6,207 nt of DNA from the NCBI GenBank assembly GCA_905479025.1, contig CAJQKX010000542.1:1-6207 (forward strand), written 5' to 3'. The position numbers and the translations under genes are program-made. The DNA is from an uncultured Paraglaciecola sp. (GTDB taxonomy: Bacteria > Pseudomonadota > Gammaproteobacteria > Enterobacterales > Alteromonadaceae). Below, piece by piece: positions 1,820 through 6,207 of the stretch (its first letter is position 1; each line of letters begins with the position of its first letter). The notes under the pieces are model-generated. The model was not told where the DNA came from. It saw only the letters and a program-made list of their open reading frames with translations, and ran no database searches.

Positions 1820-1870
1820 GATTTCAGATTTTCCACATGTCTACACTTAAATTTATGTTTCTATTACGTT

Positions 1871-1904
1871 TGTGGGTAACGAAGATGCTTTTCCGTTACC
1901 CACA
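1871..1904 (+). terminator. Strong stem-loop between convergent genes, probable terminator
   Basis: TGTGGGTAACG (1871-1881) and CGTTACCCACA (1894-1904) form a perfect 11-bp stem with a 12-nt loop. On the plus strand it is followed by a T-rich run (TTTACTCTTTTATTT), so it fits an intrinsic terminator for the RNase H-like transcript. It also lies 10 nt beyond the stop of the minus-strand DJ-1/PfpI gene. On that strand no T-run follows, so termination of that gene here is less certain. Confidence 0.75.
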
Positions 1905-1913
1905 TTTACTCTT

Positions 1914-2588
1914 TTATTTACCTAGCTGTTGCACTATTGCTACACCAACCGCATGGGCACTGGTAGGGTTTTGGCCTGTAATTACACGTTCGTCTTCGAT
2001 GACAAACTCCCCCCAAGGTTGCACTTTACTGTAACGAGCAGCGTTACGAGCAAGTGACTCTTCTAATAGGAAAGGTATGTCGTTTATGGTACCAAAATCT
2101 ATTTCTTCTTCTCGGGTAAAACCGGTGACGGATTTATTGGCTAATAGACTTTCACCGTTGCTTAGGGTGATAGGCAATAAGGCCGCTGGACCATGACATA
2201 CCGCAGCGATAATGCCGCCATTTTCATAGTGTTTGGCACTCAGTGCGGCAAAATCTTTGTTGCTGGCTAAGTCATTAAGTAGCCCAAACCCACCTGGATA
2301 AAATACCGCGTCGTAATCCTCTATATTTATATTGGAGACAGGGATCGTATTTTTAATTTTACTTTGTAAAGTTTGGTTGTTTAGTAAGTCTTTGTTTACG
2401 CTATCGCCTTCGATATCAGTACCATAAAGAGGTGCTTCACCCCCTTTAATCGAGGCAATATCATAATCAAATCCTGCTTCTAACAACACATGTAATGCAT
2501 GGGTAAGCTCTGGTGAGTAGGTGCCATTGGCTTGGTCAGTTGTGCCTAAGGTTGCATGATTAGTGACTGGAATGAGTATTTTTTTCAT
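1914..2588 (-). CDS. DJ-1/PfpI family protein, Hsp31-like (type 1 glutamine amidotransferase domain)
   Basis: A 224-residue member of the DJ-1/PfpI superfamily. The nucleophile elbow AAVCHGPAAL places Cys131 and His132 together, and Glu27 in YSPELTHAL provides the acid, giving the Cys-His-Glu set seen in Hsp31-type glyoxalase III/chaperone proteins. YPGGFG at 97-102 is the usual strand-loop of the fold. There is no signal peptide, so it is probably cytoplasmic. Relatives convert methylglyoxal to lactate without glutathione or act as deglycases or stress chaperones; which applies here cannot be read from sequence. The start is ATG at 2588-2586, preceded by an AAAGG ribosome site at about 9 nt. 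It is divergent from a LysR regulator across a 128-bp gap, so it is the likely target of that regulator. Confidence 0.88.
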   Translation of the reverse strand: MKKILIPVTNHATLGTTDQANGTYSPELTHALHVLLEAGFDYDIASIKGGEAPLYGTDIEGDSVNKDLLNNQTLQSKIKNTIPVSNINIEDYDAVFYPGGFGLLNDLASNKDFAALSAKHYENGGIIAAVCHGPAALLPITLSNGESLLANKSVTGFTREEEIDFGTINDIPFLLEESLARNAARYSKVQPWGEFVIEDERVITGQNPTSAHAVGVAIVQQLGK

Positions 2589-2655
2589 TTTAATTACCTT
2601 TAATGAGTCTTATGATGCGCTTTTTTTAAGCTGGTACCATGTTAATTCTTAAACG

Positions 2656-2706
2656 TATTGACAACAATATGGCGAAATGACAAATTACTGTTGTTATATA
2701 GCAATA
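2656..2706. promoter_or_regulatory. Divergent control region: dyads and an extended -10 for the LysR gene
   Basis: Two 14-bp dyads lie 35 bp apart centre to centre. The first, at 2656-2669, is TATTG-N4-CAATA and is perfect. The second, at 2691-2704, is TTGTTATATAGCAA with 6 of 7 pairs matched. A further CAATA lies at 2702-2706. ACAACA (2661-2666) and TGTTGT (2689-2694) also form an inverted pair. TGTTATATA (2692-2700) fits an extended -10 for the LysR gene and lies within the second dyad, so binding there could repress the regulator itself. LysR proteins commonly bind such dyads between divergent genes. The assignment is inference. Confidence 0.4.
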
Positions 2707-2716
2707 ATAGTAAATT

Positions 2717-3589
2717 ATGGCAAATTTCGAGGGTATTATTGAGTTTGTTTGTGTGGCCGAGAGCCAAGGGTTTTCGGCAGCGGCAAAACAACTGAGTTGC
2801 AGTACAAGCCATGTTAGTAGACACATATCAAAACTAGAAAAACGTTTAGGTTGTGCGTTGTTTGCACGTACAACTAGATTAGTCAGCCTTACATCAGCTG
2901 GACTAAGTTATTACCATCAATGCAAAGACTTAGTCACCGGCTTACAACAGGCCAACGAACAGATTAATTCTCAGCAACTTAAACTAGTTGGCACCTTAAA
3001 AATCAGTGCAGCGGGCACTTTTGCTGAACAACAAGTGGCACCAGTATTAATGGAATTTGCACTGCAACACCCAGAGCTGTCCATTGATATTGACTTTAAT
3101 ACTAAACCGGTCAATTTTGTCGAAGACGGTATCGATTTTGCGATCCGGTATGGCAAATTACAGGATTCTGGATTGGTTGCTCGAAAGTTATTAGCTCATC
3201 CCATGATGGCGGTGGCCAGTCCGTCTTATTTGGCTCAATATGGGATACCCAACCATCCAAGCGACTTAAAAGCACATAGCTGTATTATTTCGAATAATGA
3301 CCATTGGACGTTTATTCATGAAGAACAAGAACAGAATATAAAAGTGCAGGGACGTTGGAAGAGTAATAATGCCCAAGCGGTGGTTAACGCATGTGAACAA
3401 GGTTTAGGTATTGCCTACATGCCGCAACATAATTTTTTGCAGGCCACTGAGCAAGGACGATTAATTCCAATATTAAACACATTTTGGCGCAGCGAGTCCT
3501 ATAGTTGGGTGGTGTTTCAAGATCGTCGCTTTTTACCTATGAGAGCCCGATTGGCGATTGACCATTTACTTGCGCATTTTTCTGCATAA
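2717..3589 (+). CDS. LysR-family transcriptional regulator (CrgA-like effector domain)
   Basis: A 290-residue LysR regulator of standard length. Residues 1-60 are the winged helix-turn-helix, with the family pattern FSAAAKQLSCSTSHVSRHISKLEKRLG cut here to its key parts: FSAAA, SHVSRHISKLE and LFARTTR. A linker helix rich in Gln follows (about 70-88), then the two-lobed effector-binding domain from about 90 to the end. That domain has DFAIRYGKLQDSGLVAR and GLGIAYMPQ, typical of the CrgA-like subgroup. The start ATG 2717 gives the canonical MANFEGIIEFV opening, although no Shine-Dalgarno site is visible and the leader from the proposed promoter would be only about 10 nt. It is divergent from the DJ-1/PfpI gene, which is the likely regulated gene. 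The inducer is unknown; an electrophile or oxidant would suit the neighbour but is a guess. Confidence 0.93.
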   Translation: MANFEGIIEFVCVAESQGFSAAAKQLSCSTSHVSRHISKLEKRLGCALFARTTRLVSLTSAGLSYYHQCKDLVTGLQQANEQINSQQLKLVGTLKISAAGTFAEQQVAPVLMEFALQHPELSIDIDFNTKPVNFVEDGIDFAIRYGKLQDSGLVARKLLAHPMMAVASPSYLAQYGIPNHPSDLKAHSCIISNNDHWTFIHEEQEQNIKVQGRWKSNNAQAVVNACEQGLGIAYMPQHNFLQATEQGRLIPILNTFWRSESYSWVVFQDRRFLPMRARLAIDHLLAHFSA

Positions 3590-3610
3590 AAACTCAGTCG
3601 GTAAACTGCG

Positions 3611-4060
3611 TTACTTTGTCGCGTCACCTCGTAATAGACTGAACAACCATCCTCCCATCGCGCCTGCTAAGGATTGACATATAAACCCTAAAGTACTTCT
3701 AGCGCCAGCAATCACAGTGATGTCTAAAATCGGATGCATAGCAAAAAGTGCGGTCGCCACGCCACATCCGCCGCCTGCAAAATATACCGCTTTGGAAGGT
3801 AACTGAAAGCGTTTAATTAACAGAGCTGATATACAAAAAGCGACTAAAAAGCTTAAGCCTATGACCACCCCATAAATCGGATATAAGCCAATTAAATCAT
3901 CCAAACTCATACTCAGTCTGTCTACAACGCTGATTGTGACTCCTACTGAGGTTAATTCGAACATAACAAATTGGCTATGAAACAGGCTGGCTAATACAAA
4001 TGCAAAAATAGTCGCCATTAAAAAGTGGCGGCAAAGTCTTAGGTAAAACTTAAATTTCAT
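3611..4060 (-). CDS. Four-helix integral membrane protein, unknown function
   Basis: I do not recognise a named family. The 149-residue protein has four hydrophobic segments at about 13-34, 59-82, 91-117 and 122-143, with basic residues at the N-terminus (KFKFYLRLCRH) and a short charged C-terminus (RGDATK). The third and fourth helices are glycine/alanine rich (FAGGGCGVA, SLAGAMGGW), suggesting tight packing. ATG at 4060-4058 is preferred; a GTG nine bases upstream (4069-4067) in frame adds three residues. Neither has a strong ribosome site. It converges with the LysR gene, 21 bp apart, with no obvious terminator between them. It is divergent from the sugar dehydrogenase across about 140 bp. 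I believe similar small membrane proteins sit beside this dehydrogenase in related bacteria, but that is memory and not a search. It shows no catalytic motif. Confidence 0.75.
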   Translation of the reverse strand: MKFKFYLRLCRHFLMATIFAFVLASLFHSQFVMFELTSVGVTISVVDRLSMSLDDLIGLYPIYGVVIGLSFLVAFCISALLIKRFQLPSKAVYFAGGGCGVATALFAMHPILDITVIAGARSTLGFICQSLAGAMGGWLFSLLRGDATK

Positions 4061-4087
4061 ATGAGTCACTTAATTTGGGTAATTGCA

Positions 4088-4188
4088 TTGATCTAGGAAC
4101 TAAGCAATCATGCGTTAACTGTGCACTAAGATCAACTCAGTGATTCATTGACGTTTATATCTATACCACCTCGAAATAGCGTGCACAG
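4088..4188. promoter_or_regulatory. Divergent intergenic region with two inverted repeats
   Basis: The gap between the membrane protein and the sugar dehydrogenase holds two pairs of inverted arms. TTGATCT (4088-4094) pairs with AGATCAA (4129-4135). CTGTGCAC (4119-4126) pairs with GTGCACAG (4181-4188), and each of these also contains the palindrome GTGCAC. TTGACG at 4148-4153 resembles a -35 hexamer but lacks a convincing -10 at the right distance. These are possible operator sites; no regulator is identified in the window. Confidence 0.3.
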
Positions 4189-4202
4189 CGGGTTGGGGAT
4201 AT

Positions 4203-5354
4203 ATGTTTTTACTGTCCAAGAGCGAGCAAATTATGCCTTTTTGTGTGTTTATTTATAGTCTGATTGTTGTATTTACCCTGTCATTCGGGTCAGCGAAAGC
4301 ACAGACGCTGTCTTTTCCAAGTTATACAATCGAAACCATCGCAAAAGGTTTGGACTATCCGTGGGCATTGGCATTTTTACCTGATGGTGATTTACTGGTT
4401 ACTGAGCGCACAGGTCAAATTAGAATAGTCAGTCAAAATACTGTTTCTGAGCCTCTCGTTGGACTGCCAAAGGATATTTATGTTCAAGGGCAAGGCGGGC
4501 TACTGGATGTGGTATTACATCCAAATTATCACATTAATGGTTGGTTGTATTTATCCTATACAGTCGGCTCAGATGACAAAAACGCTTTGCAAGTTATGCG
4601 CGCTAAGTTAAGTGGAAATCAACTGATACAGCAACAGATCATGTTTACTGTCAGTCCTTTTAAAGATACGCCAGTGCATTTTGCGGGACGAATGACTTTT
4701 TTACCGGACAACTCATTACTTATCACCAGTGGTGATGGTTTTGATTATCGAGAGGATGCCCAGCGACTTAATAACCTTCTGGGTAAAGTGATACGCATTA
4801 ATGACGATGGCAGCATTCCCGCAAACAATCCTTTTTTAAGTGAAGATGTGGATTCACTCAGTAACTATGTATTTACCTATGGGCACAGAAACGCACAAGC
4901 CATTTTGTATGACCCGTCGCGAGGTGTTATTTTTTCAAATGAACATGGACCTGACGGTGGTGACGAATTAAATATTATCCAAGCCGGAGTCAATTACGGT
5001 TGGCCGGTTATCACCTTCGGCAATGATTATATTGGTGGACGCATTAGCCCATTTACCGATTATCCCAATATGCAACAACCGCTAATAGACTGGACACCAT
5101 CTATCGCACCTTCAGGTATGGCAGTCCATTCTGGTGAACTATTTAAGGCATTAAACGGTGATCTTTTAATCAGTGTGCTTAAATTTAAGGAAGTACGTTG
5201 GGTGCAAATGGACGGTATTAACGTGGTAGGACAGGTCTCTTTATTTAAGGAGCTCGGGCAAAGAATTCGTGATGTTCGTGTTCATCCTGATGGTTCTATC
5301 TATGTATTAACAGATAGCGCACAGGGAAAAGTACTGCGAGTGGTCCCTGATTAG
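4203..5354 (+). CDS. Secreted PQQ-dependent aldose sugar dehydrogenase (YliI/Asd-like)
   Basis: A 383-residue six-bladed beta-propeller dehydrogenase of the soluble glucose dehydrogenase / E. coli YliI (Asd) family. It oxidises aldose sugars in the periplasm using pyrroloquinoline quinone and calcium. A signal peptide covers residues 1-33, with hydrophobic core CVFIYSLIVVFTL and cleavage likely after AKA. Positions that match the family active site are Gln97 in GQGGLLDV, His159 in VHFAGR (catalytic base), and Arg229-Asn230 in YGHRNAQ. NEHGPDGGDELN (246-257) and NYGWP (264-268) are strong family signatures. ATG 4203 has a good ribosome site (GGGGA, about 4 nt upstream). A second ATG at 4233 (residue 11) also gives a working signal peptide, so the start is uncertain. 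No PQQ synthesis genes are present here, so the cofactor must come from elsewhere in the genome or from outside. Length is normal and the reading frame intact. Confidence 0.92.
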   Translation: MFLLSKSEQIMPFCVFIYSLIVVFTLSFGSAKAQTLSFPSYTIETIAKGLDYPWALAFLPDGDLLVTERTGQIRIVSQNTVSEPLVGLPKDIYVQGQGGLLDVVLHPNYHINGWLYLSYTVGSDDKNALQVMRAKLSGNQLIQQQIMFTVSPFKDTPVHFAGRMTFLPDNSLLITSGDGFDYREDAQRLNNLLGKVIRINDDGSIPANNPFLSEDVDSLSNYVFTYGHRNAQAILYDPSRGVIFSNEHGPDGGDELNIIQAGVNYGWPVITFGNDYIGGRISPFTDYPNMQQPLIDWTPSIAPSGMAVHSGELFKALNGDLLISVLKFKEVRWVQMDGINVVGQVSLFKELGQRIRDVRVHPDGSIYVLTDSAQGKVLRVVPD

Positions 5355-5681
5355 CTTAATTTGTCATTTTTTGTTAAAAAACTGTAAATTTCAGTAACTT
5401 ATCACTTAAATAAATACTGATTATAGATAAACAGTCACTCTTCACAATTCCACTTTTTGTTAATAACGCTTATAATTGCTTACTAAGTCCCCATGTTGCA
5501 GTGTTTTGTATCGGTTGGGAGTGTGTTACTCAGCACAAGATTTACTTGTTGCATATCGTAAACACATTAGGACAAGCCGCAGAGGCTGCCCCGCCTAAGC
5601 CGCTTATGTAAATTGTACTTATTTTACCAAATGATGCTTAACGTATTGAAAATCAGTTAAGCTGTCGACAAAATTTTATCC
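5355..5681. other. Long intergenic region, no gene seen
   Basis: No supported coding frame lies in this stretch. Just after the dehydrogenase there is an AT-only stem (TTTTTT-GTT-AAAAAA, 5367-5381) that is too weak to call a terminator. A perfect TATAAT at 5471-5476 lacks a good -35. A GC-rich island at about 5564-5609 stands out from the AT-rich surroundings. It carries AAGCCGC twice (5574-5580 and 5597-5603) and nested pairs ACAT/ATGT, TAGG/CCTA and AGCC/GGCT. A small RNA between the TATAAT and this island is possible but unsupported by any family I recognise. Confidence 0.4.
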
Positions 5682-5703
5682 TGTTAATTATCATATAATT
5701 AGC
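5682..5703 (+). promoter_or_regulatory. ArcA-box match overlapping the acnB promoter
   Basis: TGTTAATTAT at 5682-5691 matches the published ArcA consensus WGTTAATTAW at all ten positions. The next 11 bp (5693-5703, ATATAATTAGC) aligns with it as a partial direct repeat, and ArcA sites are built from repeats spaced about 11 bp. TATAAT at 5694-5699 is a perfect -10 hexamer, so bound ArcA would cover the promoter. No good -35 is visible. E. coli acnB is known to be repressed by ArcA, which makes the placement sensible. Binding in this organism is inference. Confidence 0.5.
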
Positions 5704-5728
5704 ACGTTATAGCCCTTGAGAGGTGTAT

Positions 5729-6151
5729 ATGAGTTTGTATTTAGAATACGTTGAAGAAATTAAAAGCCGGAACACAGATCTCGGATTGGCGCCTAAGCCA
5801 ATTGATAGTGCTGAATTGTTAGCAGAAATTATCGAGCAAATTAAAGACTCGGCCCATGAGCACAGAGAGGATTCGCTTCATTTTTTCATCTATAACACTC
5901 TGCCGGGAACGACTAGTGCAGCCGGAGAAAAAGCTCAATTCTTAAAAGAAATCATATTAGGTGACTTTGCATTAGCAGAAATTACACCCACCTTTGCTTT
6001 TGAGTTGTTATCGCATATGAAAGGTGGACCTTCAATTGATGTGCTTCTAGATTTAGCTCTATCTGATGACACATCGGTATCAAAACCAGCTGCTAAAGTG
6101 TTGAAGACGCAAGTGTTTCTATATGAAGCAGATACGAGTCGCCTAATATGA
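5729..6151 (+). CDS. acnB: Aconitate hydratase B, N-terminal part only; frame closed by fold-back sequence
   Basis: The 140-residue frame matches the N-terminal HEAT-like domain of AcnB, the TCA-cycle enzyme interconverting citrate and isocitrate. Similarity to E. coli AcnB is visible in LGLAPKPIDSAELLAEI, the FELLSHMKGGPSIDVLLDLAL segment and AAKVLKTQVFLYEAD. ATG 5729 has a clear ribosome site (GAGAGG, 5718-5723); a GTG two codons earlier (5723) overlaps that site and is unlikely. E. coli AcnB has 865 residues, so the iron-sulfur cluster and catalytic domains are missing here. The frame ends because bases from 6142 are an exact reverse complement of 5896-5961. The last residue and the TGA therefore come from the inverted copy and not from native acnB. 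Native sequence is trustworthy to about residue 137 (around 6137-6141). Treat it as the 5' part of a full acnB interrupted by an inversion or a chimeric join, not as a small stand-alone protein. Confidence 0.9.
   Translation: MSLYLEYVEEIKSRNTDLGLAPKPIDSAELLAEIIEQIKDSAHEHREDSLHFFIYNTLPGTTSAAGEKAQFLKEIILGDFALAEITPTFAFELLSHMKGGPSIDVLLDLALSDDTSVSKPAAKVLKTQVFLYEADTSRLI
5896..5961 (+). repeat. Left arm of a 66-bp perfect inverted repeat (inside acnB)
   Basis: This stretch of the acnB reading frame (encoding about residues 57-78, around TLPGTTSAAGEKAQF) is reproduced base for base as its reverse complement at 6142-6207. It reads as ordinary coding sequence with conserved AcnB residues, so this is the original copy. 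The arms are separated by 180 nt (5962-6141). Beyond position 5961 the match breaks at one base (5962 against 6141), resumes for four (5963-5966 against 6137-6140) and then ends. Confidence 0.97.
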
Positions 6152-6207
6152 TTTCTTTTAAGAATTGAGCTTTTTCTCCGGCTGCACTAGTCGTTCCCGG
6201 CAGAGTG
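6142..6207 (-). repeat. Right arm of the inverted repeat, running off the window end
   Basis: An exact reverse complement of 5896-5961, 66 of 66 bases. It contains no AcnB coding sense on the plus strand and supplies the TGA that closes the acnB frame. Pairing is still perfect at the final base, so the true repeat may be longer. The junction falls at about 6137-6150, at an imperfect short homology (AGTCGCCTAA on entry against AGTCACCTAA in the inverted source). Confidence 0.97.

Follow-up and report, generated by a model that had tools for sequence, protein, structure and literature searches.

Genes of the window and the truncated acnB

The window, by which we mean the whole stretch of 6,207 nucleotides that was analysed, contains from left to right genes for a COQ7-family protein, an RNase-H-like protein, a DJ-1/PfpI-family protein and a LysR-type regulator, an ORF of 152 amino acids, a gene of the glucose/sorbosone dehydrogenase family, and the start of acnB. 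The COQ7-family protein (334-876) scores 143 bits with Pfam and 37 bits with the NCBIfam COQ7 monooxygenase model (cut-off 180), and appears to be a divergent member of its family. The RNase-H-family protein (1259-1747) scores 44.8 bits with Pfam and 36 bits with the RNase HI equivalog model, against a cut-off of 160 bits. Just after its gene, at 1768-1800, a short tandem repeat of nearly three 12-nt units, agtgtttcaact, can be seen by eye. The 152-aa ORF (3611-4069, minus strand) matches neither Pfam nor NCBIfam models at E 0.001; by eye, it probably encodes a membrane protein. The dehydrogenase of the window was found on 81 contigs, the longest of 363,849 nt, and among the 120 relatives listed nine of the eleven that carry an NCBI organism name are named Paraglaciecola. 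The source bacterium is Paraglaciecola-like. A 24-nt stretch of the dehydrogenase gene had no match in viral_contigs, and a megablast search of plasmid records gave no match.

The truncated gene at the right end was identified as acnB by domain PF11791 (E 1.9e-31). The NCBIfam models NF006690 and TIGR00117 were matched within their first 130 positions, with scores far below the whole-protein cut-offs, because acnB is present here as a fragment. These three matches agree with the placement of a fold-back inside acnB by an earlier note on this sequence. The apparent reading frame extends from the ATG at 5729 to a stop codon at 6149-6151 and ends SRLI-stop. The stop codon lies within an inverted copy of an upstream part of the same gene. 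The ORF, the profile matches and the comparison with a closely related protein indicate that the true 5' part of acnB occupies 5729-6144 on the plus strand, up to codon 139.

The closely related protein, P0241, comes from a different record (a contig of 24,797 nt) and shares residues 1-139 with the window at 100% identity, after which it runs on normally (SRLEDAFKAGNAIAKDILESYA / SRLEDAFKAGNAIAKDILESYARADFF). Another one, P0242, is 99% identical and has the same continuation as P0241, and a complete protein, P0243, shows 93% identity over the scored part. When the fragment was compared with related loci by tblastn, the best 40 of the 83 alignments, including two that repeat places already counted, all passed SRL in the usual manner. 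Continuous acnB sequences are thus directly observed elsewhere. A fragment search with the truncated ORF retrieved 1184 proteins, and none of the 120 listed was more than 81% identical. No record of the same truncated ORF was seen among these 120. With a database clustered at 90%, this speaks only weakly against recurrence.

The inverted arm and its junction

Base-by-base comparison of 5896-5961 with 6142-6207 gave 66 nt of perfect reverse complementarity, exactly as the earlier note had stated, and the match is still open at 6207, where the window ends, again as described there. The inverted part is therefore at least 66 nt long. Inward of this arm there is a single mismatch (T at 5962, G at 6141), followed by four further matches (5963-5966 with 6137-6140). 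The total pairing is 71 nt at 99%, with this one mismatch, and the agreement drops further inward. The loop is 170 nt between the 71-nt arms, or 180 nt between the perfect 66-nt arms. The original arm, 5896-5966 on the plus strand, is normal acnB sequence covering codons 56-80, by the arm comparison and by the identity with P0241 at the protein level. The segment between the 71-nt arms (5967-6136, plus strand) is normal acnB as well, and relatives match it on the strand of the gene. They match the 66-nt perfect copy at 6142-6207, which we regard as chimeric, on the opposite strand, so that it is read as minus. Outside the candidate priming tract the inverted arm shows zero differences from its source. 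The inversion is seen directly in the window, with a single inversion junction at its extreme end.

The length of the arm was set against the background of natural inverted repeats. A script scan of 80 related loci (L001-L080, 1,233,714 bases) for perfect inverted repeats of at least 16 nt with a loop of up to 1000 nt found 35, the longest of 25 nt. Perfect inverted repeats above 25 nt with a loop of up to 1 kb are absent from these 80 loci (1.23 Mb), and none of those found lies wholly inside locus coordinates 7900-10800, where acnB is situated in most of them. Since the longest control repeat is only 25 nt, the 66-nt arm is far above chance, in accordance with the previous expectation that a natural perfect repeat of this length would be surprising.

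The switch between templates can be placed rather precisely. In the normal gene the residue following SRL is glutamate in P0241, and the corresponding codon in the related locus L092 is GAA; thus the A at 6146 already belongs to the new template. The switch lies within 6142-6145, where base 6145 may come from either template. The earlier note had reported a short imperfect homology at the join. Such a homology is indeed present, but the second A of the proposed 'CCTAA', base 6146, cannot be counted as part of it, so that the shared tract becomes AGTCGCCT(A), 8-9 nt with one G.T wobble. These last normal bases, at 6137-6145, are complementary to (T)AGGTGACT at 5958-5966 in all positions bar one, and in a strand folded onto itself the lone mismatch is a G.T wobble. 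The switch zone AGTCGCCTA (6137-6145, plus strand) can therefore pair with 5958-5966 by eight Watson-Crick pairs and one G.T pair, of which 3-4 nt at the join are perfect. This possible pairing can be read directly from the two tracts.

The single-strand DNA fold predicted for 5950-6145 has a nine-pair outer stem, in which 5958-5966 pairs with 6137-6145, in the minimum-energy structure as well as in the centroid. The energy of the fold is -22.9 kcal/mol (z -2.03), and 4 of 200 shuffled sequences were as good. Among 4930 test 3' ends in the window, a site comparable to that of the 9-nt tract lay no more than 500 nt upstream in 59 cases and no more than 1000 nt upstream in 123. The 8-nt tract, which ends at 6144, gave 173 and 366 such cases out of 4930, and the pairing is less special in this version. 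The junction homology is suggestive, not overwhelming.

Comparison with related genomes across the switch

Of the genomes found, G020 is the nearest: a single alignment at 84% identity covers window positions 1868-6144, directly preceded by a match at 73% over 1258-1746. Fifteen of the 22 genomes of the genus match the region 4203-6207, and eleven have an alignment in the acnB part. None of these eleven has an acnB alignment on the strand of the gene that extends beyond position 6146: the alignments end at 6135-6146 in ten genomes and at 6051 in one. In nine genomes of the genus, the last 55-69 nt are matched in a separate alignment to the opposite strand of the same gene.

The same pattern was observed at the level of the family, where two candidates were scored per genome and 104 out of 295 genomes match. 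Among the matches listed, no alignment on the gene strand extends beyond 6146, and the reverse alignments begin at query position 408 (window position 6136) or later. A match crossing the junction was found neither in the 22 genomes of the genus nor, among the matches listed, in the 295 genomes of the family. A search of viral_contigs for the exact 25-nt sequence of the junction gave no match, which is a weak test for chromosomal DNA. One family genome, G204, has two acnB-like matches on contigs C105 and C77, possibly reflecting two aconitase B genes or a mixed bin.

Origin of the inverted arm

The inverted arm is very probably a fold-back chimera formed in vitro, that is, a sequencing artefact rather than biology. 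Both the in-vitro origin and the candidate enzymes are inferred from sequence evidence. The proposed sequence of events would be as follows. In the course of amplification or library preparation, a strand ...GAGTCGCCT(A) would come off its template at its 3' end, at a point within 6142-6145, and this end would anneal to (T)AGGTGACT at 5958-5966. The partner could be the same strand, folded back with a loop of 170 nt, or another single-stranded copy. The polymerase would then extend the annealed end, producing the reverse complement of 5957 downwards, and a read of this chimeric molecule would be assembled as the end of the sequence. For the assembler to have followed the chimeric path over the normal one, coverage of the normal continuation would have to be low or uneven. 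The shared tract at the junction and the normal continuation of P0241 support what had been suggested in the earlier note, a template switch to the opposite strand at a tract of short homology.

Both multiple displacement amplification (MDA) with phi29 polymerase and self-priming during library end repair or PCR fit this scheme. As reported in PMC1855051 for MDA, 406 of 475 chimeras were inverted, most segment pairs lay within 10 kb, junctions had 2-21 complementary nucleotides in more than 70% of cases, and inverted chimeras with segments less than 10 kb apart had junction complementarity in 93.5%. The window resembles the inverted chimeras described there in the inverted second segment, the short distance (180 nt between the perfect arms), the complementarity at the junction (3-4 nt perfect, 8-9 nt with one G.T), and the extension on an opposite-strand template, but the feature is seen in assembled sequence and not in a read. 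In the same source, Lasken and Stockwell (2007) argue that MDA does not depend to any large extent on hairpin self-priming. On this argument, a neat hairpin suits library preparation at least as well as it does MDA; if MDA was used, a true hairpin would be no more likely than annealing to another displaced strand.

Similar fold-back molecules arise at library end repair according to the PDSM model (PMC10908179), and in amplified Illumina libraries most wrongly oriented reads are ascribed to fragments with two ends that are inverted copies of one another (PMC4060946). The artefacts described in PMC10908179 likewise combine a strand with its own opposite strand and start at nearly perfect inverted repeats. 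Here such a natural repeat at the join is formed by (T)AGGTGACT at 5958-5966 and AGTCGCCT(A) at 6137-6145, although this repeat is short and the new template may already begin at base 6145. However, the artefacts of that study come from human capture libraries and are observed at soft-clipped read ends, in a small share of the reads (PMC10908179), whereas the window has at least 66 inverted nucleotides in assembled sequence.

Three other explanations were weighed against the fold-back chimera. Tandem inversion duplications (TID) occur in laboratory selections, and the junctions of TID and of origin-dependent inverted-repeat amplification (ODIRA) start at short interrupted inverted repeats. Snap-back priming of this kind in vivo, in a cell or a sub-population that retained an intact acnB nearby, would give a real inverted duplication, and both the homology at the junction and the predicted fold would be compatible with it. 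An inversion junction is present in the window as in ODIRA (PMC4689423) or TID, and interstitial inverted triplications are known that involve no loss of genetic information (PMC4689423). The continuous acnB proteins found elsewhere leave room for this explanation, because in-vivo snap-back could preserve an intact copy. For the same reason it was too strong to hold, as the earlier note did, that reads continuing normally past 6141 would refute a rearrangement, given that an intact copy can coexist (PMC4689423). A real event would involve two junctions and a raised copy number, and the window stops inside the second arm. Against such an event, one junction only is seen, at the very end of the window. 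The identity of the arm to its source outside the priming tract and the absence of junction-crossing matches in the 22 genus genomes and, among the matches listed, in the 295 family genomes also argue against it, as does, weakly for chromosomal DNA, the unmatched 25-nt junction in viral_contigs. As in the previous view, a genuine duplication is the less likely reading, and we consider it very unlikely. There is similarly little chance that a snap-back inverted duplication, with its junction in acnB, is present in some members of a wild Paraglaciecola population and was captured in a metagenome, as the natural equivalent of the TIDs of laboratory selections; if true, this would be an inverted gene amplification in a wild marine bacterium.

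An assembler might also have joined the sequence to its own reverse complement with no chimeric molecule involved. The position of the feature at the end of the sequence would agree with this, and one may conjecture that the 66 nt represent k-1 for k = 67, the contig ending where the de Bruijn graph becomes shared. But the join shares only 3-4 nt perfectly, or 8-9 nt with the wobble, and assemblers ordinarily accept a longer overlap or k-mer, so that a chimeric read is needed and pure misassembly is extremely unlikely. Hence, of the artefact sources that had been proposed, amplification and library fold-backs fit, and misassembly from normal reads is unlikely. A natural functional inverted repeat in acnB, such as a regulatory hairpin, a terminator or the end of a mobile element, has the predicted fold as its sole support and is almost certainly not the explanation: the stop codon would shorten a conserved protein, and perfect inverted repeats in the related loci (1.23 Mb) reach no more than 25 nt. 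The regulatory hairpin and the mobile-element end were rejected, as no such repeat exists at this place of acnB in P0241, P0242 and the relatives examined.

With the arm taken as a fold-back chimera, the 140-aa 'aconitase fragment' ending in SRLI, and all of 6146-6207, should not be read as biology, and the fold-back matters for annotation only. Screening contig ends for fold-backs could precede the calling of inverted repeats or truncated genes.

The two acnB proteins closest to the window are themselves incomplete and have odd tails, P0241 stopping after 607 residues and P0242 after 531. The tail of P0242 after residue 523, LSHRFGLG, is unrelated and perhaps represents another chimera or a contig-end error; a fold-back source for it was not found in L092, L001 and L084. 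The end of P0241, RKRFPRP, looks by eye like the product of a frameshift.
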